Shown here in pieces: positions 111-33,684 of a DNA stretch of 42,755 nucleotides. Position 1 is the first letter of the stretch, and each line of letters starts with the position of its first letter. The stretch comes from Frankia nepalensis. Lineage in GTDB: Bacteria > Actinomycetota > Actinomycetes > Frankiales > Frankiaceae. The notes under the pieces were generated by a model that was not told the DNA's origin, searched no databases, and saw nothing but the letters and a program-made list of their open reading frames with translations. A program made the position numbers and the translations under genes. The stretch is from positions 22,411 to 65,165 of the forward strand of contig NZ_JADWYU010000135.1 of assembly GCF_016786325.1 (NCBI RefSeq), in the 5' to 3' direction.

Positions 111-1229
111 ATGTCGTTCCGGTGGGGGATCGCGGGCACCGGTGCCATCGCGCGCGGGTTCGCCGAGGCGCTGGGCCGGTTGCCGGACGCCGAGCTGGTG
201 GCCGTCGGGTCGCGCCGGCAGCAGACGGCCGACGAGTTCGGCGAGCGGTTCGCGGTCCAGCCGTCCCGCAGGTACGCCTCGTACGAGGAGCTGGCGGCCG
301 ACGACGGCGTCGACGTCGTCTACGTGGCGACCCCGGCCTCGCATCACCATCGCCACACGCTCCTGTTCCTGCGCGCGGGCCGAGCGGTGCTGTGCGAGAA
401 GCCGTTCGCGCTCGACGCCGTACAGGCAGCCGAGATGGTCGCGACGGCCCGCGACGAAGGCCAGTTCCTGATGGAGGCGATGTGGAGCCGGTTCCTGCCC
501 GCCTACGTCAGGATCCGGGAGCTGGTCGCGGCGGGCGCCATCGGCACCGTGCTGGCCGTCGACGGCGACTTCGGCTTCCGACTGCCACCGACGCCGGATG
601 ACCGGCTGTTCGACCCCGCCCGGGGCGGCGGCGCGCTGCTCGACCTCGGCGTCTACCCGGTCTCGCTGGCCAGCATGCTGCTCGGCGAACCGGACCAGGT
701 CAGCGCCGTCGGCCAGGTCGGCGCCACCGGCGTCGACGAGCACGTCGCCATCCTCATGGGCTACCAGTCAGGCGCCGTGGCGCTCGCCAAGGCGTCCCTG
801 CGGGCGGGCCTCAGCTGTACCGGCCGGATCTCGGGCACGGCCGGCAGCATCGAGCTGCCCGCGTTCATGCACTGCCCCGACGAGCTGGTCGTCCACAGCC
901 GGTCCGGCACCGAGCGCCTGCGCCTGCCGGCCGCCCTCGACCCCGCGGACACCGCCGACGCGGCCGCGGGTGGCGACGGGCCACACGACCGGGCCGGCGG
1001 CGGCCTGCACCACCAGGCTCGACACGTCCATGAGCGGATCCGCGCGGGGCGCCTGGACAGCGACGTGATGCCACTGGACGAGTCCGTGTCGGTGATGCGG
1101 ACGCTCGACGCCGTGCGCGCGCGGATCGGCCCGCGCTACCCGACCAGCGATCTCGAGATCCCGCGACCAGCCACGACGATCCCGCATTCGCCGGGCGCCC
1201 CGCGATCTGGAGGGGACATTCACCCATGA
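111..1229 (+). CDS. Gfo/Idh/MocA family sugar oxidoreductase
   Basis: NAD(P)-dependent oxidoreductase of 372 residues, in the family that oxidises or epimerises sugars and inositols. The N-terminal Rossmann fold shows GIAGTGAIARGF at residues 6-17. The family motif EKP is at 96-98, where Lys97 is the expected catalytic lysine. The C-terminal substrate domain has the conserved DLGVYP string near residue 180 and ends in the usual VMPLDES...MRTLD block. Its stop overlaps the GH3 start by 4 bases (ATGA), so the two are probably translationally coupled. The context suggests processing of a monosaccharide released by the glycosidases downstream. The substrate cannot be told from sequence; glucose-fructose, xylose or dihydrodiol dehydrogenase-like activity are all possible. 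The Ala/Gly-rich stretch around residues 285-300 looks like a linker insertion. Confidence 0.88.
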   Translation: MSFRWGIAGTGAIARGFAEALGRLPDAELVAVGSRRQQTADEFGERFAVQPSRRYASYEELAADDGVDVVYVATPASHHHRHTLLFLRAGRAVLCEKPFALDAVQAAEMVATARDEGQFLMEAMWSRFLPAYVRIRELVAAGAIGTVLAVDGDFGFRLPPTPDDRLFDPARGGGALLDLGVYPVSLASMLLGEPDQVSAVGQVGATGVDEHVAILMGYQSGAVALAKASLRAGLSCTGRISGTAGSIELPAFMHCPDELVVHSRSGTERLRLPAALDPADTADAAAGGDGPHDRAGGGLHHQARHVHERIRAGRLDSDVMPLDESVSVMRTLDAVRARIGPRYPTSDLEIPRPATTIPHSPGAPRSGGDIHP

Positions 1230-3613
1230 CCGCCACCACGTGGACGCCTGAGAAGGTCTCGGAGCTGGTCTCCCAGCTCACGCTGGAGCAGAAGGTCGCC
1301 CAGCTCACCGGGTTCGCCGTCACTGACCTCGTCGTACGACGGCCTGGCGGCGACTCGGGTCAGGCGGGCCCGGACATCGACGTCGACCGGCTGCCAGCCC
1401 TGCGGCCCCACGGCGTGGGGCACCTGTCGCTGGCCTGGTTCCTCGGGCGTGACGCCGACAGCCTGCGGTCCGATCTCGCGCGCGTCCAGGCCGCCGTCCG
1501 GGAAGTGTCGCCGTTCGGGATCGGCGCGCTCGTGCACTTCGAGGCGATCAGCGGCCTGCTGCACAGCTCGGGCCCGCAGTTCCCGACCGCCTGGGCGCAG
1601 GCGGCCACCTGGGAACCCGCGCTCGTGGCGCGCGCCGCGGCCGTGACGGCGGCGCGGATGCGCGCGGCCGGGATCCACCACGCGCTGTCCCCGGTCATGG
1701 ACCTCGCCCGGGACCCGCGCTGGGGCCGGGTTCACGAGACCTACGGAGAGGACCCCGAACTCGCCGCGCGGTTCTCCGTCGCGTTCGTGCGCGGCATCCA
1801 GGGCACCGACGGCGCGTCGGGCGTGCTGGCCACGGGCAAGCATTTCGTCGGCTACGGCGCCTCCGAAGGAGGCCTCAACCAGGCCGTCACCCAGCTGGGC
1901 CGGCGCGCACTTGTCGACGAGTACGCCGAGCCATTCCGCCGCGCGATCGCCGAAGCCGACCTCGCGAGCGTCATGAACTCCTACAACGAGATCGACGGCG
2001 TTCCGTGCGTCGCGGACCGCTGGCTGCTCACCGAGCTGCTGCGCGACCAGCTCGGCTTCACCGGCGTCGTCGTCAGCGACTACGACTCCGTGACCCTGCA
2101 GACCCGGTTCTTCCACACCGCGGACGCGCCGGCGCAGGCCGCCGTCCAGGCGGTCAGCGCCGGCCTCGACGTCGAGCTCCCCGGCGACACGAACTACTCC
2201 CACCTGGTCGAGGAGGTCCGCGGCGGCCGGCTCGACGAGCGGGTCATCGACCTCGCCGTCACCCGCGTCCTCGCCGCCAAGGCCCGCGCCGGACTCATCC
2301 CAGGCATGACGACGCCCCGTTCAGACCCCGCGCCCGCGACGCCGGAGCCCGGCGAGGCCGCGACGGTACGCCGCGCCATCGCCGAACGGGGCCTGATACT
2401 GCTCGACAACGACGGGACACTGCCGCTCGCGCCGCGAAGCGGCCGCGTCGTCGTGGTCGGCCCCGCGGCCGACGAACTGCGCATCCACTTCGGCGCCTAC
2501 ACCTCGGTCTCGAACGCCGAGGTCCCCATGGGAATGATCGCGGTGATGACCGGGCAGATCCCCGGCGTCGACCCGGCGACCTTCGTGTTCACCGACATCT
2601 TCCAAACCCGGATGCCGGGCCTCGACGAACGTTTCGAGGCCGAGGCACGACGGATCCACCCGGACATGCCCACCGTGGTCGACGCCCTGCGCCGCCTCGA
2701 CCCCGCCATCGAGCACTTCCCGCTCGGACGGTTCGAGACGGACCCCGACCATCCGCTGGACCCGTTCATAGTCGAACAGGCGGTGGCCGACGCCGACGTC
2801 GTCATCGCCGTGGTCGGCGAACGGACCGGCTGGGTCGGCAACAACACCGCCGGCGAAGGCCAGTCGACCGCCGAGCCCGCGCTGCCCGGCGACCAGGAGA
2901 CGCTCGTCGCCCAGCTGGCGGCCACGGGGAAGCCGCTGGTGACCGTCGTCGTCTCCGGGCGGCCGCTGCTGCTCGACGCGGTCGCGCGGGCATCGAACGC
3001 GGTCCTGCTCGCGCCGCTGCTCGGCGAGGAGGCGGGCCCGGCGATCGCCGGCGCGGTCTTCGGCGCGCTCAACCCGAGCGGCAAGCTGCCAGGCACGTTC
3101 CCCCGCCACCTCGGCCAGCTGCCGATCTACCACGGGCACCACCACGGCAGCGGCTACCACCACCCCACCGGCACCCGGCACGGCTACAACGACCTCGCCG
3201 ACCCCGGCCCGCTGTACGTGTTCGGCCACGGCCTGTCCTACAGCACCTTCGACGTCGCGCTCGACGACTCCACCGGGCCCGCGGTCGAGGAGACCGACGG
3301 GCTCATCCGCGCGCGGCTCGTCGTGACGAACACCGGCACCGTCGACGGTGAGACGGTCGTGCAGCTCTATGCCCGCGACGAGGCGGCCGCCGTGGTCCGC
3401 CCGGTCCGCCAGCTGATCGGGTTCGCCCGCCTCGCGCTGCCCGCGGGCGAAACCACGACGGTCACCCTCGAAGCCCCGGTCGAACGGCTCTTCTACACCC
3501 AGGCCGACGGCACCCGGGGCATCGAGGCCGGCGACGTCACCGTGCTGGCCGGGTTCAGCAGCGACGACGTCCGCTGCGCCGGCACGATCACGCTCCCCGC
3601 GTTCACCGCCTGA
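1226..3613 (+). CDS. Glycoside hydrolase family 3 (beta-glucosidase/beta-xylosidase)
   Basis: A 795-residue exo-acting retaining glycosidase that removes beta-linked glucose or xylose from the non-reducing ends of oligosaccharides. The N-terminal TIM barrel contains DPRWGRVHETYGEDP at about 163-177, GKHFVGYG at 204-211 and the nucleophile motif VVSDYDS, with Asp285 as the expected nucleophile. A GH3 C-terminal alpha/beta domain follows (about 385-650). A fibronectin-III-like domain closes the protein (GETVVQLY...RQLIGF, about 695-780), as in bacterial beta-xylosidases and beta-glucosidases. No signal peptide, so probably cytoplasmic. The start at 1226 is supported by GGAGGGG at 1209-1215 and the ATGA overlap with the previous gene. 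The GH43 gene two positions downstream makes beta-xylosidase activity plausible, but family 3 specificity cannot be read from motifs. Confidence 0.95.
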   Translation: MTATTWTPEKVSELVSQLTLEQKVAQLTGFAVTDLVVRRPGGDSGQAGPDIDVDRLPALRPHGVGHLSLAWFLGRDADSLRSDLARVQAAVREVSPFGIGALVHFEAISGLLHSSGPQFPTAWAQAATWEPALVARAAAVTAARMRAAGIHHALSPVMDLARDPRWGRVHETYGEDPELAARFSVAFVRGIQGTDGASGVLATGKHFVGYGASEGGLNQAVTQLGRRALVDEYAEPFRRAIAEADLASVMNSYNEIDGVPCVADRWLLTELLRDQLGFTGVVVSDYDSVTLQTRFFHTADAPAQAAVQAVSAGLDVELPGDTNYSHLVEEVRGGRLDERVIDLAVTRVLAAKARAGLIPGMTTPRSDPAPATPEPGEAATVRRAIAERGLILLDNDGTLPLAPRSGRVVVVGPAADELRIHFGAYTSVSNAEVPMGMIAVMTGQIPGVDPATFVFTDIFQTRMPGLDERFEAEARRIHPDMPTVVDALRRLDPAIEHFPLGRFETDPDHPLDPFIVEQAVADADVVIAVVGERTGWVGNNTAGEGQSTAEPALPGDQETLVAQLAATGKPLVTVVVSGRPLLLDAVARASNAVLLAPLLGEEAGPAIAGAVFGALNPSGKLPGTFPRHLGQLPIYHGHHHGSGYHHPTGTRHGYNDLADPGPLYVFGHGLSYSTFDVALDDSTGPAVEETDGLIRARLVVTNTGTVDGETVVQLYARDEAAAVVRPVRQLIGFARLALPAGETTTVTLEAPVERLFYTQADGTRGIEAGDVTVLAGFSSDDVRCAGTITLPAFTA

Positions 3614-3680
3614 CCACCGCCGGGGCCGGCCACGGCACGACCGCCGGAGCCGCCCACGCGGACCGACCCACCCGCACCGG

Positions 3681-3873
3681 GTGGCGCGAGAGCGGAGCCG
3701 AGAAGGAGAGGAACGACACCATGCCGCCCGGTTCGCGTCGAGTTCGAGCCGGGCTCTCGCCATGGGCATCTGAACGAGCCGTTCACCGTGGCCGGCGAAC
3801 GGAGCCCGGACCGGATGACCACCTGGCCGACCGCCGCGGTGGCCTGATGCGTTCGACCCGCGGTCCGAACGTC
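3681..3873 (+). pseudogene. Relic copy of the downstream esterase gene (leader plus last 39 codons)
   Basis: Bases 3681-3725 align without gaps to the leader of the esterase gene at 8082-8126 (34 of 45 identical by hand count), including a purine-rich Shine-Dalgarno region and ATGCCG. Immediately after, bases 3726-3873 align to the 3' end of the same gene (8979 to about 9122) at about 90 percent. Read in the esterase frame the tail encodes PVRVEFEPGSRHGHLNEPF and onward, matching residues 279-317 including the catalytic histidine region and the stop. Similarity continues about 25 bases past the stop. The middle roughly 830 bases of the gene are absent. This is best read as a second esterase gene with a large internal deletion. 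Most early differences are third-codon changes, so the copy was probably once under selection. A 63-codon ORF at 3721-3912 is in a different frame and is not a gene. Confidence 0.85.
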
Positions 3874-3908
3874 ATCCGCTGCCCCCGCATGAGACGAGGC
3901 CCAGCACT

Positions 3909-5378
3909 GTGAACGTGAACCCGATCCTGCCCGGCTTCCATCCGGACCCGACGATCTGCCGGGTGGGAGACGACCACTACCTCGCCACCTCCAGCTTCGA
4001 GTACTTCCCGGGCGTGCCGATCTTCCACAGCACCAACCTGACCGACTGGGAACAGATCGGCAACGTGCTCACCCGTCCCACCCAGCTGAACGTGACCACC
4101 GGCCTGGCCGGCGCGAGCGCGGGCATCTACGCGCCGACGCTGCGCCACCACGACGGCCGGTTCTGGCTGATCACCACCAACCGGGCGGACATCCGCAAGG
4201 GCCACCTGCTCGTGCACACCGACGACCCGGCCGGCGCCTGGAGCGAGCCGACCTACGTCGACGGGGCGATCGGCATCGACCCAGACCTGGCCTGGGACGT
4301 CGACGGCACCTGCCACGTCAGCTGGACCATGCCGGGCGCGGGCATCCTGCAGGCGGCCCTCGATCCTGGCAGCGGCAAGCTCCTGACCGAGCAGCGAACG
4401 CTGTGGCGCGGCACCGGCCTCGCTCATCCCGAGGGCCCGCACCTGGTCCACCACGATGACTGGTGGTACCTGGTCATCGCGGAGGGCGGCACGGAACGCG
4501 GCCACGCCGTCTCGGTAGCCCGCTCCCGCACCATCACCGGACCCTTCGTGGCCAACTCCGCCAATCCCATCCTGACCCGGGCCGGTACCGACCACCCGGT
4601 CCAGAACACCGGCCACGCGGATCTGGTCGAGCTTGCCGACGGAACCTGGGCGATGGTCCACCTCGGGGTCCGTCCCCGCGGCACCACCCCGCAGTTTCAT
4701 GTCAACGGGCGGGAGACCTTCCTGGCCGGCGTCGACTGGGTCGACGGCTGGCCCACCGTCGTCGAGGACCGGTTCGCGCCCGAGGCGGCGGCGACGTCCT
4801 TCGTCGATGACTTCTCCGCCTCGTCCCTGCATCCCCGCTGGATCTCTCCCGGCACCGACCCCGCCACCTTCGTCCGGCGCCGCGCCCAGGGCGGGATCAC
4901 CCTCGCCGCCGGCCGGGCGGCGGACGCGCGCGAGGCGCGGCACCTGCTCGCGGTACGCGCCCGGGACCTGGAGTGGCAGGCGACCGCGGCCGTTCCCGAC
5001 GGAGACGCCAGCCTGACCGTCCGCATCGACGACGCGCACTGGGCCGCCGTCCAACGACAGGGCCGGACCCTCACCGCGCGGATGGTGATCGGCCCCCTCG
5101 ACCAGACGCTCGCGACGGAGAACGAGATCGAGCCGCGGCACCCCCTCGCCATCCGCGCTGTCGCGAAGCCCGACGCCTTCAGCCTGCGCCAGGGGCCCGA
5201 CCTGCTCGAGCTCGGTCACGTCCGTGACGGCGACTTCCAGGTCCTGGCCACCGTCGACGGCCGGTACCTGTCCACCGAGGTCGCCGGCGGGTTCACCGGA
5301 CGCGTCATCGGCGTCGAGGCGTTGGGCGCCGGCGCCACGCTGACCCGTTTCGTCTACCAGCCAGCCGTGTCGAGCTGA
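3909..5378 (+). CDS. Glycoside hydrolase family 43 (beta-xylosidase/alpha-L-arabinofuranosidase)
   Basis: A 489-residue inverting glycosidase. The five-bladed propeller opens with NPILPGFHPDPTI, as in XynB-type GH43. The likely catalytic triad is visible: Asp13 in HPDPT (general base), Asp124 in GIDPDL (pKa modulator) and Glu175 in HPEGPH (general acid). From about residue 298 a beta-sandwich domain of the beta-xylosidase C-terminal type follows (SFVDDFSASSLHPRW...), which in this subfamily contributes a loop to the active site and favours exo action on xylo-oligosaccharides. No signal peptide, so probably intracellular hydrolysis of imported xylo- or arabinoxylo-oligosaccharides. The GTG start at 3909 places the PILPGFHPDP block at the N terminus as in homologues; no strong Shine-Dalgarno sequence is seen. 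The gap upstream (3614-3908) holds the esterase relic. Confidence 0.94.
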   Translation: MNVNPILPGFHPDPTICRVGDDHYLATSSFEYFPGVPIFHSTNLTDWEQIGNVLTRPTQLNVTTGLAGASAGIYAPTLRHHDGRFWLITTNRADIRKGHLLVHTDDPAGAWSEPTYVDGAIGIDPDLAWDVDGTCHVSWTMPGAGILQAALDPGSGKLLTEQRTLWRGTGLAHPEGPHLVHHDDWWYLVIAEGGTERGHAVSVARSRTITGPFVANSANPILTRAGTDHPVQNTGHADLVELADGTWAMVHLGVRPRGTTPQFHVNGRETFLAGVDWVDGWPTVVEDRFAPEAAATSFVDDFSASSLHPRWISPGTDPATFVRRRAQGGITLAAGRAADAREARHLLAVRARDLEWQATAAVPDGDASLTVRIDDAHWAAVQRQGRTLTARMVIGPLDQTLATENEIEPRHPLAIRAVAKPDAFSLRQGPDLLELGHVRDGDFQVLATVDGRYLSTEVAGGFTGRVIGVEALGAGATLTRFVYQPAVSS

Positions 5379-5495
5379 CCCGCATCCCGTGGAGCCGAGC
5401 TTCGCCGTCGCGGACGCCGTCGTTCGGCCCGGCCACCAGCGCCGCCCAGGCGGACCAGCCGCCACGTCCGCGACCTACCCCAGGAGCGAGGTCCC

Positions 5496-7997
5496 GTGTC
5501 CCGTTCGTGGAACGCCAGCTTCATCGCCGCGCCGGCCCGCCCCACCGGGCAGGCCCCGGCGCCGGCGCCGTACCTGCGGCGCGAGTTCACGGTCGGCCCC
5601 GGCCTGCGGTCGGCCACCCTGCACGTTACCGCGCTGGGGCTCGTCGAGGCCTATCTGAACGGGAGCCGGGTCGGTGACGAGGTCCTGGCCCCGGGGTGGA
5701 CGTCCTACCGGCATCGGATGGTCGTGAGCAGCCACGACGTCGCAGACCTGCTGGTCGAGGGCACGAACGCGCTCGGCGCGATCCTGGGCGAGGGCTGGGC
5801 GGTGGGCCGGCTGACCTGGGAGGAAGGCCGACGGGGCGTGTGGGCCGATCGCCCGGCCGGGTTCCTGCGGCTCGACCTCGACTACGGCGACCGGGTCGAC
5901 GTGGTGGGCAGCGGCGCCGACTGGCGGGCCGGTACCGGCGCGATCCTGGCCGACGGCATCTACGACGGCGAGACCTACGACGCGCGGCACCACCCGGACG
6001 GCTGGGACGAGCCGGGCTTCGACGACTCCGGCTGGGCGCCGGTCGAGGTCGTCGAGCACGACCTCGACACCCTGATCGCTCCGGAGGCGCCGCCGGTCCG
6101 GCGGATCGAACAGCTGGCGCCGGTCGAGATCCTGACCACCCCGGCGGGGCGGACGGTCGTCGACTTCGGGCAGAACCTGGCGGGCTGGGTCCGCCTCACC
6201 GTCCGCGGCGAGGCCGGGACGACGATCACCCTGCGGCACGCCGAAACGCTGATCGACGGCGAGGCCGACTTCCGCACCAACCGGACCGCGCTCGCCACCG
6301 ACCGGTACACCCTGCGCGGCGTCGCCGACGGGGAGACCTGGGAGCCGCGGTTCACCTTCCACGGGTTCCGCTACGTCGAGGTCGACGGCTGGCCCGGACC
6401 GCTCGACGCCGGCGCGCTGCGGGCGGTGGTCGTGCACAGCGACCTGGTCAGGACCGGCTGGTTCGAGACCTCGAACGAGCTCGTCAACCAGCTGCACCGC
6501 AACGTCGTCTGGTCCATGCGCGGCAACTTCGTCGGGGTGCCGACCGACTGCCCGCAGCGCGACGAGCGCCTCGGCTGGACCGGTGACCTCAACGCGTTCG
6601 CCCTCACCGCCGCGTTCCTCTACGACGTCCGCGGCGTGCTCGGCTCGTGGCTGGCCGACCTCGCGGCCGAGCAGCGCGAGAAGGGCTACGTCCCGCTCGT
6701 CGTCCCGGACGCGCTCGGCATGCCCATCACCACGCCCACCGCGCTGTGGGGGGACGTCGCGGTCAGCCTGCCCTGGGCGCTCTACCAGGAGTACGGCGAC
6801 GCCGACATCCTCGCCCGCCAGTACACCTCCATGACCGCGTTCGTCGACAGCGCCGAGAGCATGCTCGACGAGCGGGGCCTGTGGAACTCGGGTTTCCAGT
6901 TCGGGGACTGGCTCGACCCGGACGCGCCGCCCACCAACCCGGCGGGCGGCAAGACGGACGCCTACCTCGTCGCGACCGCCTACCTGTGCAGGACGACCAG
7001 CGAACTCGCCCAGGCGGCCGACGTCCTCGGCCGTACGGACGACGTCGCCCGATACTCAAGGCTGCACCAGCGTGTTCGCGCGGCGTTCCGCGACGAATGG
7101 GTCACCCCCACCGGCCTGGTCGCGAACGACACCGTCACCGCCTACGCCCTGGCCATCTGCTTCGACATCCTCCGCCCCGCGCAGGAGAAACGGGCCGGGC
7201 GCCGGCTCGCCGAGCTCGTCGCCAGAGCCGACCACCGCATCAGCACCGGCTTCGCCGGCACACCCCTGGTCGCCCACGCGCTGAGCCGCACCGGCCACCT
7301 CGACACCGCCTACAAGCTGCTGCTCCAGACCGAGTGCCCGTCCTTCCTTTACCCGGTGACCCAGGGCGCGACGACGATCTGGGAGCGCTGGGACGCGATC
7401 AGGCCGGACGGGGCGCTGCACGACACCGGCATGACCTCGCTCAACCACTACGCCCTCGGGGCCGTCGCCGACTGGCTGCACCGCGTCGTCGGCGGCCTGC
7501 AACCGGCCGAGCCGGGCTACCGCCGCATCCGGATCGCCCCACAGCCCGGCGGCGGGCTCACCCACGCCACCGTCACCCACGACACCCCCCATGGACAGGC
7601 GCACGTCGCCTGGCGCCTGGACGTCGACGGCCACATGACCGTCGACGTCACCATCCCGGCCGGCACCGCCGCCGACGTCGTCCTGCCCCGCCATCCGGAC
7701 GAGCTCACCGCCCACGTCGGCGCGGGCAGCCACCATTGGGAGTACGACCTCCCGGCGGCCACCCGGCCCGCCTACACCCTCGACACCCCGCTGAAGGTGC
7801 TCTTCCACGACCAGGACACCTGGGCCGCGCTGCACTCCGCGCTGCGCCGGCACCTGCCGCAGTTCGGCGACGCCGACAGCGGCACCGAACCATCCCTGCC
7901 AAACCTGCGAACCCTCCTGGCGTACTTCCCCGAGCAGGCACCGGCCATGGAACGTGACCTGCTCGCCGTCCTCATGACACCCGCGGCCGGTGAATGA
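5496..7997 (+). CDS. Glycoside hydrolase family 78 alpha-L-rhamnosidase
   Basis: An 833-residue inverting alpha-L-rhamnosidase that releases L-rhamnose from pectic, flavonoid or saponin glycosides. N-terminal beta-sandwich domains (about 1-340) precede the (alpha/alpha)6 barrel, which begins near DCPQRDERLGWTGD (351-364) containing the expected general acid Glu357. The expected general base is Glu630 in TTIWERWD. A C-terminal beta domain follows. After it comes an extension of about 80 residues (about 752-833), predicted mostly helical, beginning near YTLDTPLKVLF and not part of the minimal GH78 fold. The GTG start at 5496 has AGGAGCGAGG just upstream. No signal peptide. The 117-base gap to GH43 (5379-5495) shows nothing specific. 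Its place here widens the substrate range to rhamnosylated plant material. Confidence 0.95.
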   Translation: MSRSWNASFIAAPARPTGQAPAPAPYLRREFTVGPGLRSATLHVTALGLVEAYLNGSRVGDEVLAPGWTSYRHRMVVSSHDVADLLVEGTNALGAILGEGWAVGRLTWEEGRRGVWADRPAGFLRLDLDYGDRVDVVGSGADWRAGTGAILADGIYDGETYDARHHPDGWDEPGFDDSGWAPVEVVEHDLDTLIAPEAPPVRRIEQLAPVEILTTPAGRTVVDFGQNLAGWVRLTVRGEAGTTITLRHAETLIDGEADFRTNRTALATDRYTLRGVADGETWEPRFTFHGFRYVEVDGWPGPLDAGALRAVVVHSDLVRTGWFETSNELVNQLHRNVVWSMRGNFVGVPTDCPQRDERLGWTGDLNAFALTAAFLYDVRGVLGSWLADLAAEQREKGYVPLVVPDALGMPITTPTALWGDVAVSLPWALYQEYGDADILARQYTSMTAFVDSAESMLDERGLWNSGFQFGDWLDPDAPPTNPAGGKTDAYLVATAYLCRTTSELAQAADVLGRTDDVARYSRLHQRVRAAFRDEWVTPTGLVANDTVTAYALAICFDILRPAQEKRAGRRLAELVARADHRISTGFAGTPLVAHALSRTGHLDTAYKLLLQTECPSFLYPVTQGATTIWERWDAIRPDGALHDTGMTSLNHYALGAVADWLHRVVGGLQPAEPGYRRIRIAPQPGGGLTHATVTHDTPHGQAHVAWRLDVDGHMTVDVTIPAGTAADVVLPRHPDELTAHVGAGSHHWEYDLPAATRPAYTLDTPLKVLFHDQDTWAALHSALRRHLPQFGDADSGTEPSLPNLRTLLAYFPEQAPAMERDLLAVLMTPAAGE

Positions 7998-11028: not shown

Positions 11029-11712
11029 CTACGGCGTCCGAGTGCCCGGGGTCATGAGCCCGTGTTCGTAGGCGAACACGACGAGCTGGGCGCGGTCGTG
11101 GGCGTGCACCTTCGTCATGGCCCGGTTGACGTGGGTCTTGGCGGTGGCGGGGCTGATGACCAGGTGGTCGGCGATCTCCTCGTTGGACAGGCCGCGGGCC
11201 ACCAGCACGGTGATCTCACGTTCGCGCGCGGTGAGTTCGTTCATCCCGGGGAGGGCGGCGTCGAGGTGCGCGGTGGAGCTGGCCAGGAACCGCTTGACCA
11301 GGGCCGTGGTCGCGGTGGGGGAGAGCAGCGACTCGCCCGTGGCCACGGTCCGGATGGCGTCCAGGAGGGCCGCCGGCGCGACTCCCTTGCCGAGGAAGCC
11401 GCTGGCGCCCGCGCGCAGGGCGGCGAGGACGAGCTCGTCGGTCTCGAAGGTGGTCAGGACGAGGATGCGCACGCCGGCGAGGGCCTGGTCGGAGGTGATC
11501 TGGGCGGTGGCGCCGATGCCGTCGAGTTCGGGCATGCGGATGTCCATGAGGACGACGTCGGGGACGGTCTGGCGTACCACCGCGACGGTCTCGACGCCGG
11601 TGCCGGCCTCGCCGACGACCTCCATGCCGGGCGCGGCGTCGAGCAGCAGCCTGAAGGTGGCGCGCAGCAGCTCCTGGTCGTCCGCGAGCACGATCCTGAT
11701 CGGGGCGGTCAC
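11029..11712 (-). CDS. LuxR/NarL-family response regulator
   Basis: A 227-residue regulator with a receiver domain (acidic pair Asp11/Asp12, phosphoacceptor Asp57 in VVLMDIRMP, Lys109 in FLGKG) and a C-terminal LuxR-type helix-turn-helix (LTAREREI...GLSNEEIADHLVIS...THV, about 160-215). The GTG start at 11712 overlaps the stop of the kinase gene by 4 bases (GTGA), so the pair is translationally coupled. It is the third gene of an MMPL-kinase-regulator operon and probably controls that exporter in response to a lipid, envelope or compound signal. Confidence 0.95.
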   Translation of the reverse strand: MTAPIRIVLADDQELLRATFRLLLDAAPGMEVVGEAGTGVETVAVVRQTVPDVVLMDIRMPELDGIGATAQITSDQALAGVRILVLTTFETDELVLAALRAGASGFLGKGVAPAALLDAIRTVATGESLLSPTATTALVKRFLASSTAHLDAALPGMNELTAREREITVLVARGLSNEEIADHLVISPATAKTHVNRAMTKVHAHDRAQLVVFAYEHGLMTPGTRTP

Positions 11713-27093: not shown

Positions 27094-27197
27094 GCCGACC
27101 GCTCTCCGTCGCAGGGTCTCCGCCGGCGACGACGGCGCGTCGGCGGACCCGGGTCGTCCACAACGGCCGGTCCGGCGGCGGCATTCGAGAACCCGGG

Positions 27198-27226
27198 TGG
27201 CCGGGGGTCGGGAACACCCCCGGCCA
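27198..27226. terminator. Strong bidirectional hairpin between convergent genes
   Basis: TGGCCGGGGGT (27198-27208) and ACCCCCGGCCA (27216-27226) form a perfect 11-base stem around a 7-base loop. It lies midway in the 165-base gap between the convergent histidine kinase stop (27093) and lcp stop (27259). It lacks a long T run, as is common in actinomycete terminators. Confidence 0.7.
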
Positions 27227-27232
27227 GCCCAC

Positions 27233-27268
27233 GACGGGTCAGGACGGGTCAGGACGGGTCAGGACGGG
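27233..27268. repeat. Tandem 10-base repeat spanning the lcp stop codon
   Basis: Three exact copies of gacgggtcag (27233-27262) plus a partial fourth. On the minus strand each copy supplies CCTGA, so the lcp stop at 27259-27261 is followed by further TGA trinucleotides every ten bases. Probably slippage expansion of the region at the stop codon. Confidence 0.8.
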
Positions 27269-28470
27269 CGGTTGATCTGCGGGATCTCGATGCTGATCGT
27301 CTGTCCCTCGGACAGGAACAGCAGGGCCAGCTTGCGGAGGAACTCGTCGAAGAGCCAGTAGGCCTGCGGCACCAGCGGGAGGGGTAGCAGGCCTTCCCGG
27401 ACGGCGATGAAGGGGCCCCAGGCCGTGCGCAGGAGCGTGTCCCAGACCGGGTCGCGGGGGATGTCCAGCCAGCCAGCGATCTTGTCGCCGAGCATGAACC
27501 GTGTGAACGAGCCGAGGATGGGCTTGCTGAGGATGCCGGCGTCAATCGTGGCGCCGAGGCTGAGGAGGATGTCGGCGAGGACCTTGCCCTCCGGTGTCGG
27601 GGCCAGCACCGGATCCAGGACCTGCTTGGCCTGGGAGTCGGCCTCGGACCAGGACGCGGGGATGTACTCGTCCTTGATGCCGAGCATGTGCGCGCCGACC
27701 TGCCACGAGTGCAGGAAGGCCGTGGACTCGTTGGCAGGGATCGGCACCTTCCACGCGGTCAGCTTCTGCATGACGGTCGTGGGCAGGCTGTGCCAGGTGA
27801 CCATCATGTCGGCCTGGCTGATCGGGATGTCCTCGGGGGCGGCGCCCGACCACTCCGGCGACTGCGGGAGCAGGTGCCGTACCGCCGCGTGCACCAGCCG
27901 GGTCTTCACACACGTCACGATCATCTCGCCGTCGGGGGCGAAAGCATTCCGGGTCCCGATGTCATATCCGAGCTTGGCGGTCTTGGAGATGCGGTCCTTC
28001 ATGTCCGCGCCGCCCTTGGAGTAGTAGACCGCGCGCGCCTCCTTCGGGATGACCGTACTCATCATGCCGCTGGCCAGCCCGTACAGCACACCGAGGTAGA
28101 GCCCGCGCTTCTCGTTGAACTGGTACGCGGTCGCCAGCATGCCCTGGTTGGTCCACGGCGGCAGCTGCCGCGCCTGCTCCATGAAGTCCCGCAGGTCCGC
28201 GGGTAATCCGGCCGGCAGGGGCTGACCGTTCTTCGTCCAGGTCCGCAGCAACTCGTTGACCCTCGGCACGTCACCCCGGTCGAGCAGCGACGCGACCAGC
28301 GGGTCGGCCTCCGGGTCCCAGACCCACCGCGGGTCGGTTCCGGCGCCCGCGCCCGCCACCGACCCCGCGGCCGACCAGGTCCACGGCACGGGCGCCGTGA
28401 CACTCAGGGCGCCGAGGGCGCCCAACGCCCCACCCACCGCCAGGATGTTGCGCCTGCTGATTTTCTCCAT
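27259..28470 (-). CDS. lcp: Latex-clearing protein (rubber oxygenase Lcp), copy 1
   Basis: A 403-residue secreted b-type haem dioxygenase. Lcp enzymes cleave the double bonds of poly(cis-1,4-isoprene) endo-wise into oligomers with aldehyde and ketone ends. A Tat signal is at the N terminus (ISRRNIL followed by Gly/Ala/Leu-rich residues to about 28). The mature protein starts near AGAGTDPRWVWDPEADPLVA, and the DUF2236/MpaB-Lcp domain fills the rest. Residues matching the functional set of Lcp-K30 (Arg164, Lys167, Thr168, His198, from memory) are Arg160, Lys163 and Thr164 in DRISKT and His194 in RLVHAAVRH, all with the same offset of 4. The length matches Lcp-K30 (about 410). ATG 28470 follows GAGGAGGAG. 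Divergent from a TetR gene. Confidence 0.9.
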   Translation of the reverse strand: MEKISRRNILAVGGALGALGALSVTAPVPWTWSAAGSVAGAGAGTDPRWVWDPEADPLVASLLDRGDVPRVNELLRTWTKNGQPLPAGLPADLRDFMEQARQLPPWTNQGMLATAYQFNEKRGLYLGVLYGLASGMMSTVIPKEARAVYYSKGGADMKDRISKTAKLGYDIGTRNAFAPDGEMIVTCVKTRLVHAAVRHLLPQSPEWSGAAPEDIPISQADMMVTWHSLPTTVMQKLTAWKVPIPANESTAFLHSWQVGAHMLGIKDEYIPASWSEADSQAKQVLDPVLAPTPEGKVLADILLSLGATIDAGILSKPILGSFTRFMLGDKIAGWLDIPRDPVWDTLLRTAWGPFIAVREGLLPLPLVPQAYWLFDEFLRKLALLFLSEGQTISIEIPQINRPS

Positions 28471-28621
28471 GCTGCCGCTCCTCCTCGAGGTCGTTCGATG
28501 CCAGCCGGAAACCTGGTGCAATGAAACAAAAACAGAGTCCGTGTATCATTGGGTCATGGCGTGTAGATGATCAAAAGGCTCGTCGCGACGGCGACCGTTG
28601 AGGAAGAACCAGGAGGTGACC
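28471..28621. promoter_or_regulatory. Divergent lcp/tetR promoter region with TGTATCA element
   Basis: This 151-base gap is AT-rich for the window. TGTATCA (28542-28548) recurs in inverted orientation, TGATACA (33370-33376), 46 bases upstream of the second lcp start. CAATGA (28519-28524) and TCATTG (28546-28551) are reverse complements around it. TATCAT (28544-28549) would also pass for a -10 box of the TetR gene. The shared heptamer is a candidate half-site for the TetR protein or a common promoter element. Confidence 0.4.
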
Positions 28622-29299
28622 ATGGAACCCTCGCTGTCCGCGTTCATGACACCGGGCTCGGAGTCGGTGCTGCAACGCGCGTACACCGACGCCGTCGAAC
28701 GGGTCGACGACACAGAGGAGACTCGGGCGCGGATTCTTGACGCGGCGTATGAGCAGTTCTGCCGGATGGGTATTCAGCGGTCGACGATGGAGGATGTGGC
28801 GCGGCGGGCCGGGGTTTCGCGGATTACCGTCTACCGCCGGTTCACGACCAAGGACGTGCTCGTCGAACAGGTGGTGCGACGCGAGTTCCGCCGGTACTTC
28901 GACCAGTTCCTCGTCGACATCCGACAGGCCAAGACCGTCGCCGACCGTCTGGTGCTCGGCTTCGTGAGCTCGTTGCGCGCCGTCCGGAGAAATCCGCTGA
29001 TCGGTGGTCTGATCGCCACGGAACCCGACCTGTTGGTGGCCTCGGTGGTCGGCGACGGTGGGCAGACCCTCGCGACCGTACGGCAGTTCCTCGCCGGTCA
29101 GCTGCGCCGTGAACAGCGCGCGGGTGCGGTGTCCAGCGACCTGGACACCGACCTCGCGGCCGAGCTGATGGTTCGGGTGTCCGCTTCCTTTCTGGTGATA
29201 CCCAGTTATGTCGTCGATATCGACGACGACGAGCAGATGGCCGCGGTCGCCCGCCGGTTTCTCGTGCCCCTGCTGAAACCAGCAGGTGACGAGGACTGA
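28622..29299 (+). CDS. TetR-family regulator of the rubber degradation locus
   Basis: A 225-residue regulator. After a 30-residue N-terminal arm, the helix-turn-helix spans about 36-80: RARILDAAYEQFCRMG, then STMEDVARRAGVSRITVYRRF. The C-terminal helical domain (90-225) would bind a ligand and dimerise. ATG 28622 is set by a near-perfect Shine-Dalgarno sequence, AGGAGGTGA at 28611-28619. It sits between and divergent from lcp copy 1, and ends 14 bases from the convergent oxiA stop. TetR proteins named LcpR are known beside lcp genes in rubber degraders, so repression of lcp and oxi genes, relieved by an isoprenoid breakdown product, is the likely role. The ligand and operator are not shown by sequence. 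Confidence 0.9.
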   Translation: MEPSLSAFMTPGSESVLQRAYTDAVERVDDTEETRARILDAAYEQFCRMGIQRSTMEDVARRAGVSRITVYRRFTTKDVLVEQVVRREFRRYFDQFLVDIRQAKTVADRLVLGFVSSLRAVRRNPLIGGLIATEPDLLVASVVGDGGQTLATVRQFLAGQLRREQRAGAVSSDLDTDLAAELMVRVSASFLVIPSYVVDIDDDEQMAAVARRFLVPLLKPAGDED

Positions 29300-29313
29300 C
29301 CGCCGGATCCCTC

Positions 29314-29790
29314 TCACATGTTCGCGGCACCGGCTTTGACGGCTTCACGGATGCGGAAGTAGGTGCCACAGCGGCAGATGTTGCGTAGGCCGTCGAGGTC
29401 GTCGTCCGTGATCGCACGTCCTTGGGCGGCGACCCGGCGGACCAGCGCCACCGCCGCCATGATCTGGCCCGGCTGGCAGTAGCCGCACTGGACGACATCG
29501 TGGTCGAGCCACGCCTGCTGCATGGGATGCAACTCCCTGCCGACCGTGGCCGGCAGTCCTTCGATGGTGGTGACCTCGTCGGCTGGCTGGAGGTCCTTGA
29601 CGGGGATCGCACAGGGGTTGACCTCCTTGCCGTTGAGGTGGCTCGTGCAGGCCTTGCAGACGTTGATGCCGCAGCCGTACTTGGGGCCGGTGATGCCGAG
29701 GACGTCGCGTAGCACCCACAGCAGGCGCACATCGTCGGGGACATTGACGGTGACCTGCTCGCCGTTGACACGGAAAGTGCGCTCGGGCAC
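29314..29790 (-). CDS. oxiA: Two-[2Fe-2S] small subunit of molybdenum hydroxylase (OxiA-like)
   Basis: A 158-residue electron-transfer subunit of the xanthine-oxidase family. The N-terminal plant-ferredoxin-type cluster is bound by Cys40, Cys45, Cys48 and Cys60 (YGCGINVCKACTSH...NPC). The C-terminal helical cluster is bound by Cys102, Cys105, Cys139 and Cys141 (QCGYCQPG...ICRCGTY). It resembles the IorA subunit of isoquinoline 1-oxidoreductase. In Streptomyces K30 an equivalent pair, OxiA/OxiB, lies beside lcp and oxidises aldehydes released from rubber. The start lies 15 bases after the oxiB stop (29806), so the two form one operon. No FAD subunit gene is present, as expected for the IorAB type. 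The electron acceptor is unknown. Confidence 0.92.
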   Translation of the reverse strand: MPERTFRVNGEQVTVNVPDDVRLLWVLRDVLGITGPKYGCGINVCKACTSHLNGKEVNPCAIPVKDLQPADEVTTIEGLPATVGRELHPMQQAWLDHDVVQCGYCQPGQIMAAVALVRRVAAQGRAITDDDLDGLRNICRCGTYFRIREAVKAGAANM

Positions 29791-29805
29791 GGGCGTCTCC
29801 CAATC

Positions 29806-32094
29806 TCAGCGGGCATGGCTCAGGCCGTCGGTCGGTGACGGGGGAACAGGCGGGACGGTTGGCTTGGGCTCGAAGGAGAGCGTGCCGTGGTTGATCGGGA
29901 AGCTGGTCGGCATGGTCCCGGTCGCGCGGCCGTAGGCGCAGGCCACGGCGGCCATGGCCGGTGCGACGCCCAGTTCCCCCGCGCCGCCCGGCTGCTCCGA
30001 GGTGCTGGGCATGACGATGATCTGGAGGGCGAGGGGCGTGTTCCACTGCCGCGTGTAGAAATAGTTGTCCCAGCTGGCTTCCAGAAAGTACCCGTCGCGC
30101 AGGTGCAGGCTGGAGGTCAGGGCCAGCGCGATGCCGTCGGAGATGCCGCCCATCATCTGGGCTTCCAGGCCGCGCGGGTTGACGGCCAGGCCGACGTCCA
30201 CGGCGAAGACGGCCCTGGTGACCCGCGGCCCGGCGACGCCCTCGCGGATGGGCCGGTTGACCGTCTCCGGCCGGCAGTCGATCTCCACCAGCGCGGCACT
30301 GACGGACTTGTACTCGGCATGGAAGGCGATGCCCTGGGCCGTGCCGGCCGGCAGGGCCCGACCCCACCCGCCCACCTCGGCGACCTTGTCCAGGACCGCC
30401 CTGGAGCGGTCATCGCGCAGGAAGTCGCGCCGGAACCGGTAGGGGTCCTTGCGCATCCGCGCGGCGAGCTGGTCGACGATCAGTTCGCGGGCGCAGGCGA
30501 CGTCGGGCGAGTAGACGTTGCGCATGCTGCCGGTGTTGAAGCCCTTGTCGGTTTCGGACAGCAGCTGGCTGGTTGCCCCGAAGTTGTAGGGCATCGTCTG
30601 ACTGAGCAGGAAGAAGGTCTCGGAGAATCCGATGTCGCCCACCGGCAGTTGCGCGGCGGTGGCCGTGATGATCTCGCCGAGCCCGTGGCCGAGGTCGGTG
30701 GCTACGCTGGTGTGCCGCTGTTCGTAGCCGAGCACGGTGCCACCGAGGTAAGAGACGCGCACTCGGGAGGTGGCCATCGGGTGGACGCGGCCCTGGCGAG
30801 CGTCGTCGGCACGGTGCCACATGAGCCTGACCGGTTTGCCGATCTTCTGCGACACCTCGGCGGCTTCCAGCGCGGCGTCGAAGAACAGCTTGCGCCCGAA
30901 GGAACCACCGCCCTGGACGACGTGCACGGCAACCCTGGACGGCGCCAGGCCGAGCTTCGCGGCGATGGTCCGCTGGGCAACGATCGGCGACTTCAACGCC
31001 GACCAGATCTCGGCACGGTCGGCCCGGACATCGGCGATGGCGCAGTTGGTTTCCAACGCACTGTTGCCGCGGAAGTAGAAGGTGAACTTCCCTTCCACAG
31101 TCGGCGTCAGCGGCGGCAGCCCGAGAGACAGCTCCGCACGCTCCAACTCTCGACGCACGATCTCGTCGGACTTTCCCGCCGCGGTACCGGGTTTCCAGGA
31201 GACACGCAGTGCCCGCACCGCATCGATGCACTGGCCGAAGGTCTCGGCGCGCACCGCCACTCCGGTGGAGATCACCACGACATCGGTGACCCCCGCCATC
31301 GCGCGCACCTCGGCGAGGTTGGCCACCGAGCCGACCTTGCCGTTGAGGGTCGGCGCGCGGCACACCATCGTGGGCTTCGCATCCGGCACGTCGAGGTCCA
31401 TCGCGAACTTCTTGCGTCCGGTGACCGCGTCCAGCGCGTCGATCCGGCTGTGCGGCTTGCCGATCACGGTGAAGCTCTCGCGTGGCGTGAGCTCGACGGA
31501 TACCTGCTCGATTCGTACGCTCGCGGCTTTGTCGGCCAGCGCGCCGAACCCGATGCTCCTGCCGGAACGATCGACGATCATGCCGTCGCGCACGGACAGG
31601 TCCGTGACCGCGGAGCCAAGCTCGATCGCCGCCGCCTCCAGCAGCCGGCGCCGGGCGATCGCGGCGGCGACCCGGATCGGCGTGTAGGTCGCGAAGGTCG
31701 TGTTCGACCCACCGGTGAGCTGGTTGAACACCAGCTCCGGCCGGGCGTCGGCCAGGGTGACCCGCACCCGGTCCAGCGGTACCGAGAGTTCCTCGGCGAT
31801 CAGCATGGCCGTCGAGGTGGTGATGCCCTGTCCCACCTCGGCCCTGGGCAGTGCGAACGACACCATCCCGTCCTGGCCGACCCCGACCGAGATCAGACCC
31901 GAGGTCGGCGCCGCCGCCACGGTCATCAGGTCGTTGAGGTCGACTATGTCAGTAATACCGGGCGACGGCAGCTGAAACTCGGCCGAAGACGCCGCCGCGA
32001 CCGTCGGCCTCAGACCGATCTCCGCCGCCGTCACCAGCGTCGGCGCGGCGAGCACATACCCGAGGAACCGTCGCCGCCCAATGGACTCGCGCAT
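29806..32094 (-). CDS. oxiB: Molybdopterin-binding large subunit of molybdenum hydroxylase (OxiB-like)
   Basis: A 762-residue catalytic subunit of the isoquinoline 1-oxidoreductase beta (IorB) class. It opens with a twin-arginine signal, IGRRRFLGYVLAAP, so the assembled enzyme is probably folded with its cofactor, then exported with the small subunit or membrane-anchored. Molybdopterin-contact motifs include VGQGITTSTAMLIAEEL near residue 95 and GGGSFGRKLFFDAALEAAEV near 400. The expected catalytic Glu is in GGAGELGVAPAMAA near residue 710. It would oxidise aldehyde ends of oligo-isoprenoids made by Lcp to carboxylates before uptake and beta-oxidation. It starts 9 bases after the lcp copy 2 stop. 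Molybdenum cofactor maturation genes are not in the window. Confidence 0.93.
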   Translation of the reverse strand: MRESIGRRRFLGYVLAAPTLVTAAEIGLRPTVAAASSAEFQLPSPGITDIVDLNDLMTVAAAPTSGLISVGVGQDGMVSFALPRAEVGQGITTSTAMLIAEELSVPLDRVRVTLADARPELVFNQLTGGSNTTFATYTPIRVAAAIARRRLLEAAAIELGSAVTDLSVRDGMIVDRSGRSIGFGALADKAASVRIEQVSVELTPRESFTVIGKPHSRIDALDAVTGRKKFAMDLDVPDAKPTMVCRAPTLNGKVGSVANLAEVRAMAGVTDVVVISTGVAVRAETFGQCIDAVRALRVSWKPGTAAGKSDEIVRRELERAELSLGLPPLTPTVEGKFTFYFRGNSALETNCAIADVRADRAEIWSALKSPIVAQRTIAAKLGLAPSRVAVHVVQGGGSFGRKLFFDAALEAAEVSQKIGKPVRLMWHRADDARQGRVHPMATSRVRVSYLGGTVLGYEQRHTSVATDLGHGLGEIITATAAQLPVGDIGFSETFFLLSQTMPYNFGATSQLLSETDKGFNTGSMRNVYSPDVACARELIVDQLAARMRKDPYRFRRDFLRDDRSRAVLDKVAEVGGWGRALPAGTAQGIAFHAEYKSVSAALVEIDCRPETVNRPIREGVAGPRVTRAVFAVDVGLAVNPRGLEAQMMGGISDGIALALTSSLHLRDGYFLEASWDNYFYTRQWNTPLALQIIVMPSTSEQPGGAGELGVAPAMAAVACAYGRATGTMPTSFPINHGTLSFEPKPTVPPVPPSPTDGLSHAR

Positions 32095-32103
32095 TTCGCT
32101 GGC

Positions 32104-33324
32104 TCAGCTCGGACGATTGCCCGTGGGGATGACGATTTTTGTCTCCTGCCCCTTGGTGAGGAAGAACAGGACGTACTGCCGCAGGGCCTCGTCGACGGTC
32201 CAGGCGATCGACGGCACCAGCGGTAACGGGATGAGCCCCTCCCGGACCTTCACCAGTACCGGCCACACGCTCTTGATCGTCGCCTCCCAGAACGGCTCGC
32301 GCGGGATCTGGTCCCAGTCGGCCACCTGTTCACTGACCAGGAACCGGGCCAGCGCGTTGACCAGGGGCCGGCCGACGCCACCCGGGCTCACCTGTTCGGC
32401 GAGCTGGCGCAGCAGGATGTCGGTCAGCTCCACGCCTTCGGGTGTCGGCCCCATGTTCGGCGGCAGCACCAGGTCCGACTGGGAGTTGGCCGTGTCCCAC
32501 GTGGCGGGGATGTACTCGTCCCGGACGCCGAGCAGGTGCGCGGTCACCTGCCACACGTGCAGGTAGGCCGCGGAGTCGGCCGCGCTCATCGGGATCTTCC
32601 ACTCCCGCATCTTGCCCATGGCGTAGGTCGGCAGGGTGTGCCAGGTCACCAGGATGTCCTCCTGGCTGATGGGGATGTCGCCGGACCAGTGGGGCGACTG
32701 TGGCAGCAGGTGCCGCACCGCCGCGTGCGTCAGCCGGGTCTTCACCGCGTTGACGATGCAGTTGCCGTCCGGCCGGTACGCGTTCAGCGCGCCGACGGCG
32801 AAGCCCAGAATGCTCGTCTTGGCAACCCGGTCCTCCATGTCCGCGCCGCCCGCCGAGTAGTAGACCGAGCGCGCCTCCTTGGGAATGGCGGTGCTCAGCA
32901 TCCCACCGCCGACACCGTTGAGCAGGTTGAGATAGAGCCCCCGCGACTTGTTGAACTGGGCGGCGGTCTCCAGCTTGGCCCGGTCCGCCCACGAGGGCAG
33001 CTGACGGGCGTGCTCGATGAAGTCCCGCAGATTCTCCGGTAACCCGTCCGGCAGCGGCTGGCCGTTGCGGTTCCAGTCCCATAACAGCTGGTTGACCTGG
33101 GGCACCAGGCCGCGGTCGAACAACGAGGCGACCACCGGATCGGCCTCGGCATCCCATACCCACCGTGGGTCGGCACCTGTGCCGGTACCGGCCACCGATC
33201 CACTGGCCGGCCACGTCCACCCCCCCGCGGCGCGCGCCTGCGTCGGCGTGACCACGCCCAGCGCACCGAGCGCGCCTAGGGTGCCGCCCGAGATCAACAC
33301 CTTGCGCCTGCTCAGGTCCACCAT
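32104..33324 (-). CDS. lcp: Latex-clearing protein (rubber oxygenase Lcp), copy 2
   Basis: A 406-residue paralogue of copy 1, more than half identical by eye. Tat signal DLSRRKVLISGGTLGALGAL; mature region from about residue 32. The haem-site residues are conserved: Arg166, Lys169 and Thr170 in DRVAKT and His200 in RLTHAAVRH, each offset by 2 from Lcp-K30 numbering. Both copies share PRWVWD, PIPKEAR/AIPKEAR-type and LLPQSP blocks and end in NRPS. ATG 33324 follows GAGGGAG with suitable spacing; the longer frame to 33555 lacks a signal-peptide start. It is first in an lcp-oxiB-oxiA operon (9 and 15 base gaps), so this copy is probably the one co-expressed with the aldehyde oxidase. The promoter lies in 33325-33420, which carries TGATACA at 33370-33376. 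Confidence 0.92.
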   Translation of the reverse strand: MVDLSRRKVLISGGTLGALGALGVVTPTQARAAGGWTWPASGSVAGTGTGADPRWVWDAEADPVVASLFDRGLVPQVNQLLWDWNRNGQPLPDGLPENLRDFIEHARQLPSWADRAKLETAAQFNKSRGLYLNLLNGVGGGMLSTAIPKEARSVYYSAGGADMEDRVAKTSILGFAVGALNAYRPDGNCIVNAVKTRLTHAAVRHLLPQSPHWSGDIPISQEDILVTWHTLPTYAMGKMREWKIPMSAADSAAYLHVWQVTAHLLGVRDEYIPATWDTANSQSDLVLPPNMGPTPEGVELTDILLRQLAEQVSPGGVGRPLVNALARFLVSEQVADWDQIPREPFWEATIKSVWPVLVKVREGLIPLPLVPSIAWTVDEALRQYVLFFLTKGQETKIVIPTGNRPS

Positions 33325-33684
33325 GTCCCGAACTCCCTCATGAGCCGCACCGTGCGCGCGGTGACACCGTGATACATAGCATGTAGCTGCGTATCTTCGC
33401 AAGCTGTTCAGTCGGCGCGGCAGCGCGTCCACCTGGCTGGTGTTTGTTTCGGCAAATATGTCGGCGGGCGGAAGGTCCTCGACCGTGAGAGGCGCCGGTC
33501 GTGTCCTCGGCGGCCGCGCCCGGTCGGCGGCGGCGAGCACCTTCTGGACCGGCATGCTGGATATCCGGGTGACGCCCTCCAGAAAACCGCGCGGTCCCCC
33601 GGCTCATCCAGGCGTCATGCGCCAAGGCATGTGGCGTCGAGGCGTAGGCCGATGGTCCGAATCCGGGTTCTGGCCCGATACAGG

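Follow-up and report, generated by a model that had tools for sequence, protein, structure and literature searches.

Frankia nepalensis very probably carries, on the 42,755-nucleotide stretch that we analysed at its full length (the window; contig NZ_JADWYU010000135.1, positions 22,411 to 65,165), a complete lcp-oxiAB cassette for polyisoprene degradation. As we read its sequence, the cassette was probably acquired horizontally, has a split layout with a latex clearing protein (Lcp) gene at each end, and probably places both of its units under one TetR-family regulator. It consists of the following features, in window positions.

27259-28470, minus strand: lcp1, encoding an lcp1-type latex clearing protein of 403 amino acids; apparently transcribed as a separate unit, in the direction away from tetR
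28622-29299, plus strand: tetR, encoding an LcpR-like TetR-family regulator of 225 amino acids from the ATG, which is preceded by AGGAGG (start in the list of open reading frames, ORFs: TTG 28598)
29314-29790, minus strand: oxiA, encoding the [2Fe-2S] subunit of a molybdenum hydroxylase; Pfam Fer2 and Fer2_2
29806-32094, minus strand: oxiB, encoding the molybdopterin subunit; Pfam MoCoBD_1 and MoCoBD_2; an N terminus (RRRFLG) that by eye resembles a twin-arginine translocation (Tat) signal
32104-33324, minus strand: lcp2, encoding an lcp2-type latex clearing protein of 406 amino acids; first gene of lcp2-oxiB-oxiA
28514-28547, minus strand: operator-like palindrome 1, between lcp1 and tetR; position weight matrix (PWM) score 31.8; own-genome profile E 0.0088
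33362-33395, minus strand: operator-like palindrome 2, upstream of lcp2-oxiB-oxiA; PWM score 31.8; own-genome profile E 0.00215
27259-33403, no strand: whole cassette, its limits set by the blastn match with Actinophytocola algeriensis (83.4%, 6193 columns)

Judged by their sequences, both outer genes encode genuine Lcp rubber oxygenases. Pfam MPAB_Lcp_cat (PF09995) matches both proteins (E 2.1e-16 and 4.3e-11), and the only PDB sequence matches at E <= 0.001 are 5o1l and 5o1m, both "rubber oxygenase" (the open and closed states of LcpK30), with 5o1l best for each copy (E 3.9e-158 for Lcp1, 1.2e-151 for Lcp2). Over 402 columns Lcp1 is 58.0% and Lcp2 57.2% identical to LcpK30. Residues R164/K167/T168/H198 of LcpK30 correspond to R160/K163/T164/H194 in Lcp1 and to R166/K169/T170/H200 in Lcp2; the initial annotation of this DNA, which had the Arg-x-x-Lys-Thr motif and the haem-ligand His of Lcp-K30 kept at offsets of -4 and +2, was right for the N-terminal half. 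E148 (E144 in Lcp1, E150 in Lcp2), R195 and R202 are also conserved in both copies. LcpK30 is an endo-type dioxygenase (PMC5522427; here and below, papers are cited for the excerpts available to us). Its proximal haem ligand is H198 and its distal one K167. On identity to LcpK30 and the active-site residues we reject a non-Lcp MpaB-type oxygenase. Both proteins carry Tat-type motifs, SRRNIL and SRRKVL, by pattern match only. A protein search of the organism's own genome (10.7 Mb, 96.8% complete) returned these two Lcp matches and no third.

Gene order and spacing suggest two transcription units. The gaps between lcp2 and oxiB (9 nt) and between oxiB and oxiA (15 nt) are operon-like, consistent with the earlier proposal that the second lcp heads an lcp-oxiB-oxiA operon, and oxiA and oxiB are encoded together 3′ of lcp2, as expected for an OxiAB molybdenum hydroxylase. 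On order and strand lcp1 stands alone, divergent from tetR, as had also been annotated; 151 nt separate the two, while oxiA and tetR converge with their stops 14 nt apart. The ORF list starts lcp1 at TTG 28521, and the ATG at 28470, with GAGGAG in front, is the likelier start. TetR contains a TetR_N domain (E 2.2e-13, in the 233-residue reading) and shares the further features of LcpR-type regulators, namely divergence from lcp and a conserved palindrome in the tetR-lcp region.

This palindrome recurs in related loci, which we sampled as the best 80 of 138 matching loci on one-genome-per-species contigs, ranked by lcp2 similarity and hence biased. Of the 80, 75 have a tetR homologue divergent from an lcp and immediately in front of it, giving 76 tetR-lcp intergenic regions on which a PWM of 34 columns was trained (window excluded, Pseudofrankia locus L004 included). 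Two strong window sites emerge from the PWM, each scoring 31.8, where training sites range from 27.7 to 53.0; the third and fourth scores, 6.4 and 4.9, overlap the same two sites on the other strand, and the top score among 200 first-order resamples of the window was 4.3. Palindrome 2, on the lcp2 side, reached its score without having been in the training, and other lcp2-side sites outside the training scored 29.7 (L003), 36.4 (L004), 26.2 (L023) and 23.1 (L006). Four tandem loci (L013, L019, L024 and L028) have an extra site between their two lcp genes, where gaps of more than 34 bases are testable, so an lcp2 operator exists beyond split loci. Across all 80 loci (1,638,942 bases; score >=20) we found 82 sites of distinct sequence before lcp genes and one elsewhere, after removal of other-strand mirror hits and repeats of one sequence. 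A search of the own genome with an operator profile of 84 sites, both window sites among its rows, recovered the two window sites only (E <= 10, with 150 of 288 first-look candidates scored). A chance operator is rejected on two grounds, the window resamples and this profile search. Compared by eye, the consensus of the PWM, GATACACAGATGCACTATGTGTTTCACCGTATCA, looks similar to the VH2 lcp2 palindrome that PMC7413915 quotes.

Because an operator-like palindrome precedes each lcp unit, one TetR probably controls both. With 150 of 215 candidates in the own genome scored, the next best match to TetR reaches 58.8 bits (33%), versus 464.3 bits for TetR itself. For Actinoplanes sp. OR16, gel shifts show binding of the regulator to DNA upstream of lcp1 (PMC7413915). 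Some observations pull the other way. The palindrome that the OR16 authors propose for their regulator differs from this one, and the OR16 lcp1 region bound a further regulator as well, that of a distant lcp3 (PMC7413915), so control by one regulator is not certain. A promoter scan gave one promoter-like site (28521-28549, plus strand, over operator 1; 0.4 expected) and a terminator scan one terminator-like site (2.5 expected), neither convincing.

The single PWM site that is not before an lcp gene (L003:19942-19975, score 37.9) lies beyond lcp1 in Actinophytocola algeriensis, just upstream of a gene pair that encodes first an AMP-binding ligase and then an acyl-CoA dehydrogenase; by its sequence, this third operator-like site probably extends the rubber regulon there into beta-oxidation. 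In Actinophytocola xinjiangensis a strong match to the operator profile (L113:1501-1534, E 4.4e-4), about 83 kb from the lcp site of that genome, sits 5 bases in front of an ORF for a bacterial globin (PF01152). An Actinoplanes locus has a second operator-like site nearer tetR (L016:8649-8682), as by eye do L040 and L044, perhaps reflecting double control there.

The split layout, with lcp2-oxiB-oxiA and tetR/lcp1 as separate units, is a less usual form of a known system. Calling genes by matches of >=150 bits within the retrieved stretches, we found two lcp genes in 73/80 loci, and such loci are also published; two lcp genes at oxiAB and the regulator are thus less unusual than had been annotated. 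The order tetR(-) lcp lcp oxiB oxiA accounts for 53/80, with two more carrying a second tetR and four in which tetR was not detected. Eight have tetR and two lcp with oxiAB undetected (some near a contig end), six have tetR and one lcp, and one has tetR, lcp, oxiB and oxiA. One locus (L006) reads lcp lcp oxiB oxiA tetR(-), and another (L065) is arranged otherwise. In related loci having the oxi pair, oxiA homologues (64-93% identity) directly follow oxiB. Only 4/80 loci are split: Actinophytocola algeriensis (L003), Pseudofrankia asymbiotica (L004) and Amycolatopsis acidicola (L023) have the window order, lcp oxiB oxiA tetR(-) lcp, and Tamaricihabitans halophyticus (L055) differs by an additional tetR before lcp2. 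All four have an operator-like site before each lcp, as in the window, and cassette DNA identity to the window is 83% for L003, 91% for L004 and 77% for L023. We found no description of the split layout in the open-access literature searched, which was available in part and through searches not aimed at layout, so its absence there is unproven.

The whole cassette, both operators included, was probably acquired horizontally, because DNA similarity to a distant relative, A. algeriensis, stops at its ends and a five-protein tree groups the two. The A. algeriensis match begins at 27259, where the lcp1 stop codon has its final base, and ends at 33403, shortly after operator-like palindrome 2; the match to Amycolatopsis acidicola spans 27259-33405 and that to Pseudofrankia 27169-33483. 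In a comparison that covered roughly 10 kb to each side of lcp2 in every relative (the A. algeriensis locus is 21 kb), we found a single match above 60 bits outside the cassette among the three relatives, a 67-column piece at 11171-11235 that matches A. algeriensis. Frankia EI5c matches over 28610-33330; it lacks lcp1 beyond tetR and retains a weak operator remnant (score 15.8). The concatenated tree (five proteins, 42 rows, quick method) unites the window, Pseudofrankia, Frankia EI5c and A. algeriensis in one group (Shimodaira-Hasegawa-like approximate likelihood ratio test, SH-aLRT, 100), and three rows from Pseudonocardiaceae with one from Micromonosporaceae complete the enclosing group of eight (support 94). 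This tree requires a minimum of three layout changes, as gains or losses, when L006, which lacks lcp1 beyond tetR, and L055, with its additional tetR, are labelled rearranged, and L065 and the three loci that have the two types in swapped order are labelled tandem. From these relationships we infer a Pseudonocardiaceae-like source and the direction of transfer. Within the family, an lcp2 of >=84% identity occurs in 3/35 genomes and any Lcp in 9/35, the own genome included in both.

Base composition adds little to the case for transfer. The cassette is lower in G+C (0.680) than the remaining window (0.724), which is weak evidence since the lcp genes resemble their neighbours in third-position G+C (0.91-0.94) and another part of the window, at 40-42 kb, is also low (0.686). 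These two points weaken the case for acquisition, as does the search for an empty site, made via the neighbouring histidine kinase and HAD genes in the seven other genomes of the genus, which found none; among the full-length matches there, the histidine kinase is at most 49% and the HAD protein at most 40% identical.

A transferred island with visible ends was considered and rejected: repeats around the cassette are limited to the similarity of lcp1 to lcp2, one 10-base tandem repeat and short pairs. The tandem repeat, CAGGACGGGT, spans 27230-27268 and thereby straddles the cassette boundary at lcp1. The Pseudofrankia asymbiotica cassette is flanked by an aldehyde dehydrogenase gene (PF00171; L004:16830-18299) beyond lcp1 and an AMP-binding gene (L004:6558-8462) before lcp2, neither common to the window.

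By sequence, the two copies are old paralogues belonging to two Lcp types. They are 58% identical, and in a FastTree phylogeny of 171 Lcp rows (56/164 inner branches weak) they fall into different groups, Lcp1 with the lcp adjoining tetR of other loci. The smallest starred sets of this tree that contain the two copies (3, 7 and 27 rows for lcp1; 3, 7 and 9 rows for lcp2) have no row in common. The tree omits a short row (L094), two 24% matches (L102, L103) and repeats of the window (L001, L002, L085, L086), and rows L087, L095, L088 and L101 are probably strains of L004 and L006 counted twice. A recent duplication in this lineage is ruled out, given 58% identity and starred sets that share no row. 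Between the types, 39 positions are fixed differently (>=85% per type; 41 lcp1-type and 42 lcp2-type rows from the gene-set loci), seven of them within residues 131-144. Three, S138/G, S233/T and A169/S in K30 numbering, are fixed in every row and stand on the published list of tunnel and pocket residues (PMC11095694); at all three LcpK30 has the lcp1-type letter. Type-specific positions are not significantly enriched among the 42 tunnel and pocket residues (7/39 versus 42/376 overall; Fisher P = 0.18).

The same tree contains a separate Lcp clade of nine rows (support 100) that includes L092, L093, L097-L101 and L006:8308. All eight of these named rows come from the family of the window or from Frankia EI5c, and the seven whole-genome rows are 47-51% identical to lcp2.

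We consider it most improbable that the two proteins are general DUF2236/MpaB-type oxygenases acting on other isoprenoids, with rubber no substrate: the Pfam family is common to MpaB proteins, NCBIfam has no family for either Lcp (nor any above-cut-off match for TetR, OxiA or OxiB) and two further PF09995 genes of the own genome are missed by the Lcp search, but an end-to-end match to LcpK30 at 57-58% identity, the full residue set and the oxiAB and tetR context all speak against this. The initial annotation had suggested a division of labour, with one copy an inducible endo-cleaver and the other trimming oligomers under different control. Apparently separate transcription units, the two old types with their 39 differently fixed positions, including the three in the pocket and tunnel, and the purified OR16 enzymes (Lcp1 4.02 U/mg, Lcp2 1.17 U/mg, with differing optima; PMC7413915) make some specialisation possible, and to this extent the suggestion holds. 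However, an identical type of operator-like site stands before both units, and this shared control speaks against differently controlled copies; the OR16 tandem copies are co-transcribed and were induced together on rubber (lcp1 22.2-fold, lcp2 17.1-fold; PMC7413915). Trimming of oligomers has no sequence support, as both copies have the active-site residues of the endo-type LcpK30, and the absence of significant tunnel and pocket enrichment likewise argues against such a split, which we regard as quite unlikely.

Simple redundancy or dosage, in which the second copy adds enzyme only and the split is a neutral rearrangement, is possible but doubtful. It fits the common active site, the repeated changes of layout, and Frankia EI5c, where lcp2-oxiB-oxiA-tetR persists without lcp1 beyond tetR and other lcp genes are present in the genome. 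Yet an lcp1-type and an lcp2-type gene are paired in all 40/80 loci with the full five-gene set, across several families, and pure redundancy does not predict this pairing. We favour a complete, probably transferred cassette whose two old Lcp types are under one probable regulator.

In such a cassette, exported Lcp1 and Lcp2, as b-type haem dioxygenases of the LcpK30 family, would cut cis-1,4-polyisoprene outside the cell, and their residues and homology point to oligo-isoprenoids with aldehyde and ketone ends as products. OxiAB, presumably exported via the Tat signal of OxiB, would oxidise the aldehyde ends to acids, as papers on K30 and OR16 suggest, and the acids would enter beta-oxidation. 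TetR is predicted to bind one operator type before tetR/lcp1 and before lcp2-oxiB-oxiA, keeping the two units off without rubber and freeing them once a rubber-derived signal appears. The sequence itself shows conserved palindromes; binding and repression by TetR are predicted, the nearest data being the OR16 gel shifts. With two promoters and one regulator, the ratio of Lcp1 to Lcp2/OxiAB need not be fixed by one transcript. A more speculative extension, which we hold to be rather unlikely, is a self-contained mobile two-promoter rubber regulon in which a single repressor with two operator copies joins the two ancient Lcp types, different haem-pocket walls (138 G, 233 T, 169 S) supply OxiAB with different oligomer lengths, and the split lets the cell adjust its cutters apart.

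That a member of the Frankia/Pseudofrankia family holds a complete cassette for rubber degradation suggests movement of the whole unit, both control sites included, between actinobacterial families. The sharp operator profile, which already flags the acyl-CoA ligase/dehydrogenase pair in A. algeriensis, could be used to find rubber-induced genes in other genomes, and the list of 39 positions makes the retention of two Lcp proteins in many rubber degraders testable by mutagenesis. Elsewhere in the window, 1226-7997 holds carbohydrate-degradation genes, among them a family 3 glycosyl hydrolase and an alpha-L-rhamnosidase.

Lcp in Frankiaceae is not new, since a table in PMC8235351 counts Frankia lcp genes. 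Among described systems, Streptomyces sp. K30 has lcp-oxiB-oxiA (PMC9108482) in the same order as lcp2-oxiB-oxiA here, and its LcpK30 active-site residues are common to the window; a single lcp is reported for K30, whereas in the window tetR and another lcp follow. Streptomyces sp. AC04842, Dactylosporangium sp. AC04546 and Microtetraspora sp. AC03309 combine lcp-oxiB-oxiA with nearby TetR genes and two or three lcp genes (PMC9108482, PMC11169899, PMC8538451), and in AC04842 the TetR gene lies beside oxiA, as in the window. They differ in having a tandem lcp pair or a second lcp on another scaffold, and the excerpts of these papers do not describe lcp on both sides of oxiAB and tetR; in AC04546, AC04842, CFMR7 and AC03309 the lcp genes are tandem, or a single lcp lies beside oxiAB. 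Actinoplanes sp. OR16 shares with the window two lcp genes, oxiB, oxiA and a divergent TetR gene. In OR16, however, tetR diverges from a single four-gene transcript, lcp1-lcp2-oxiB-oxiA, with the lcp pair in tandem and a third lcp elsewhere (PMC7413915), whereas in the window lcp1 lies beyond tetR and lcp2 has an operator-like site of its own.

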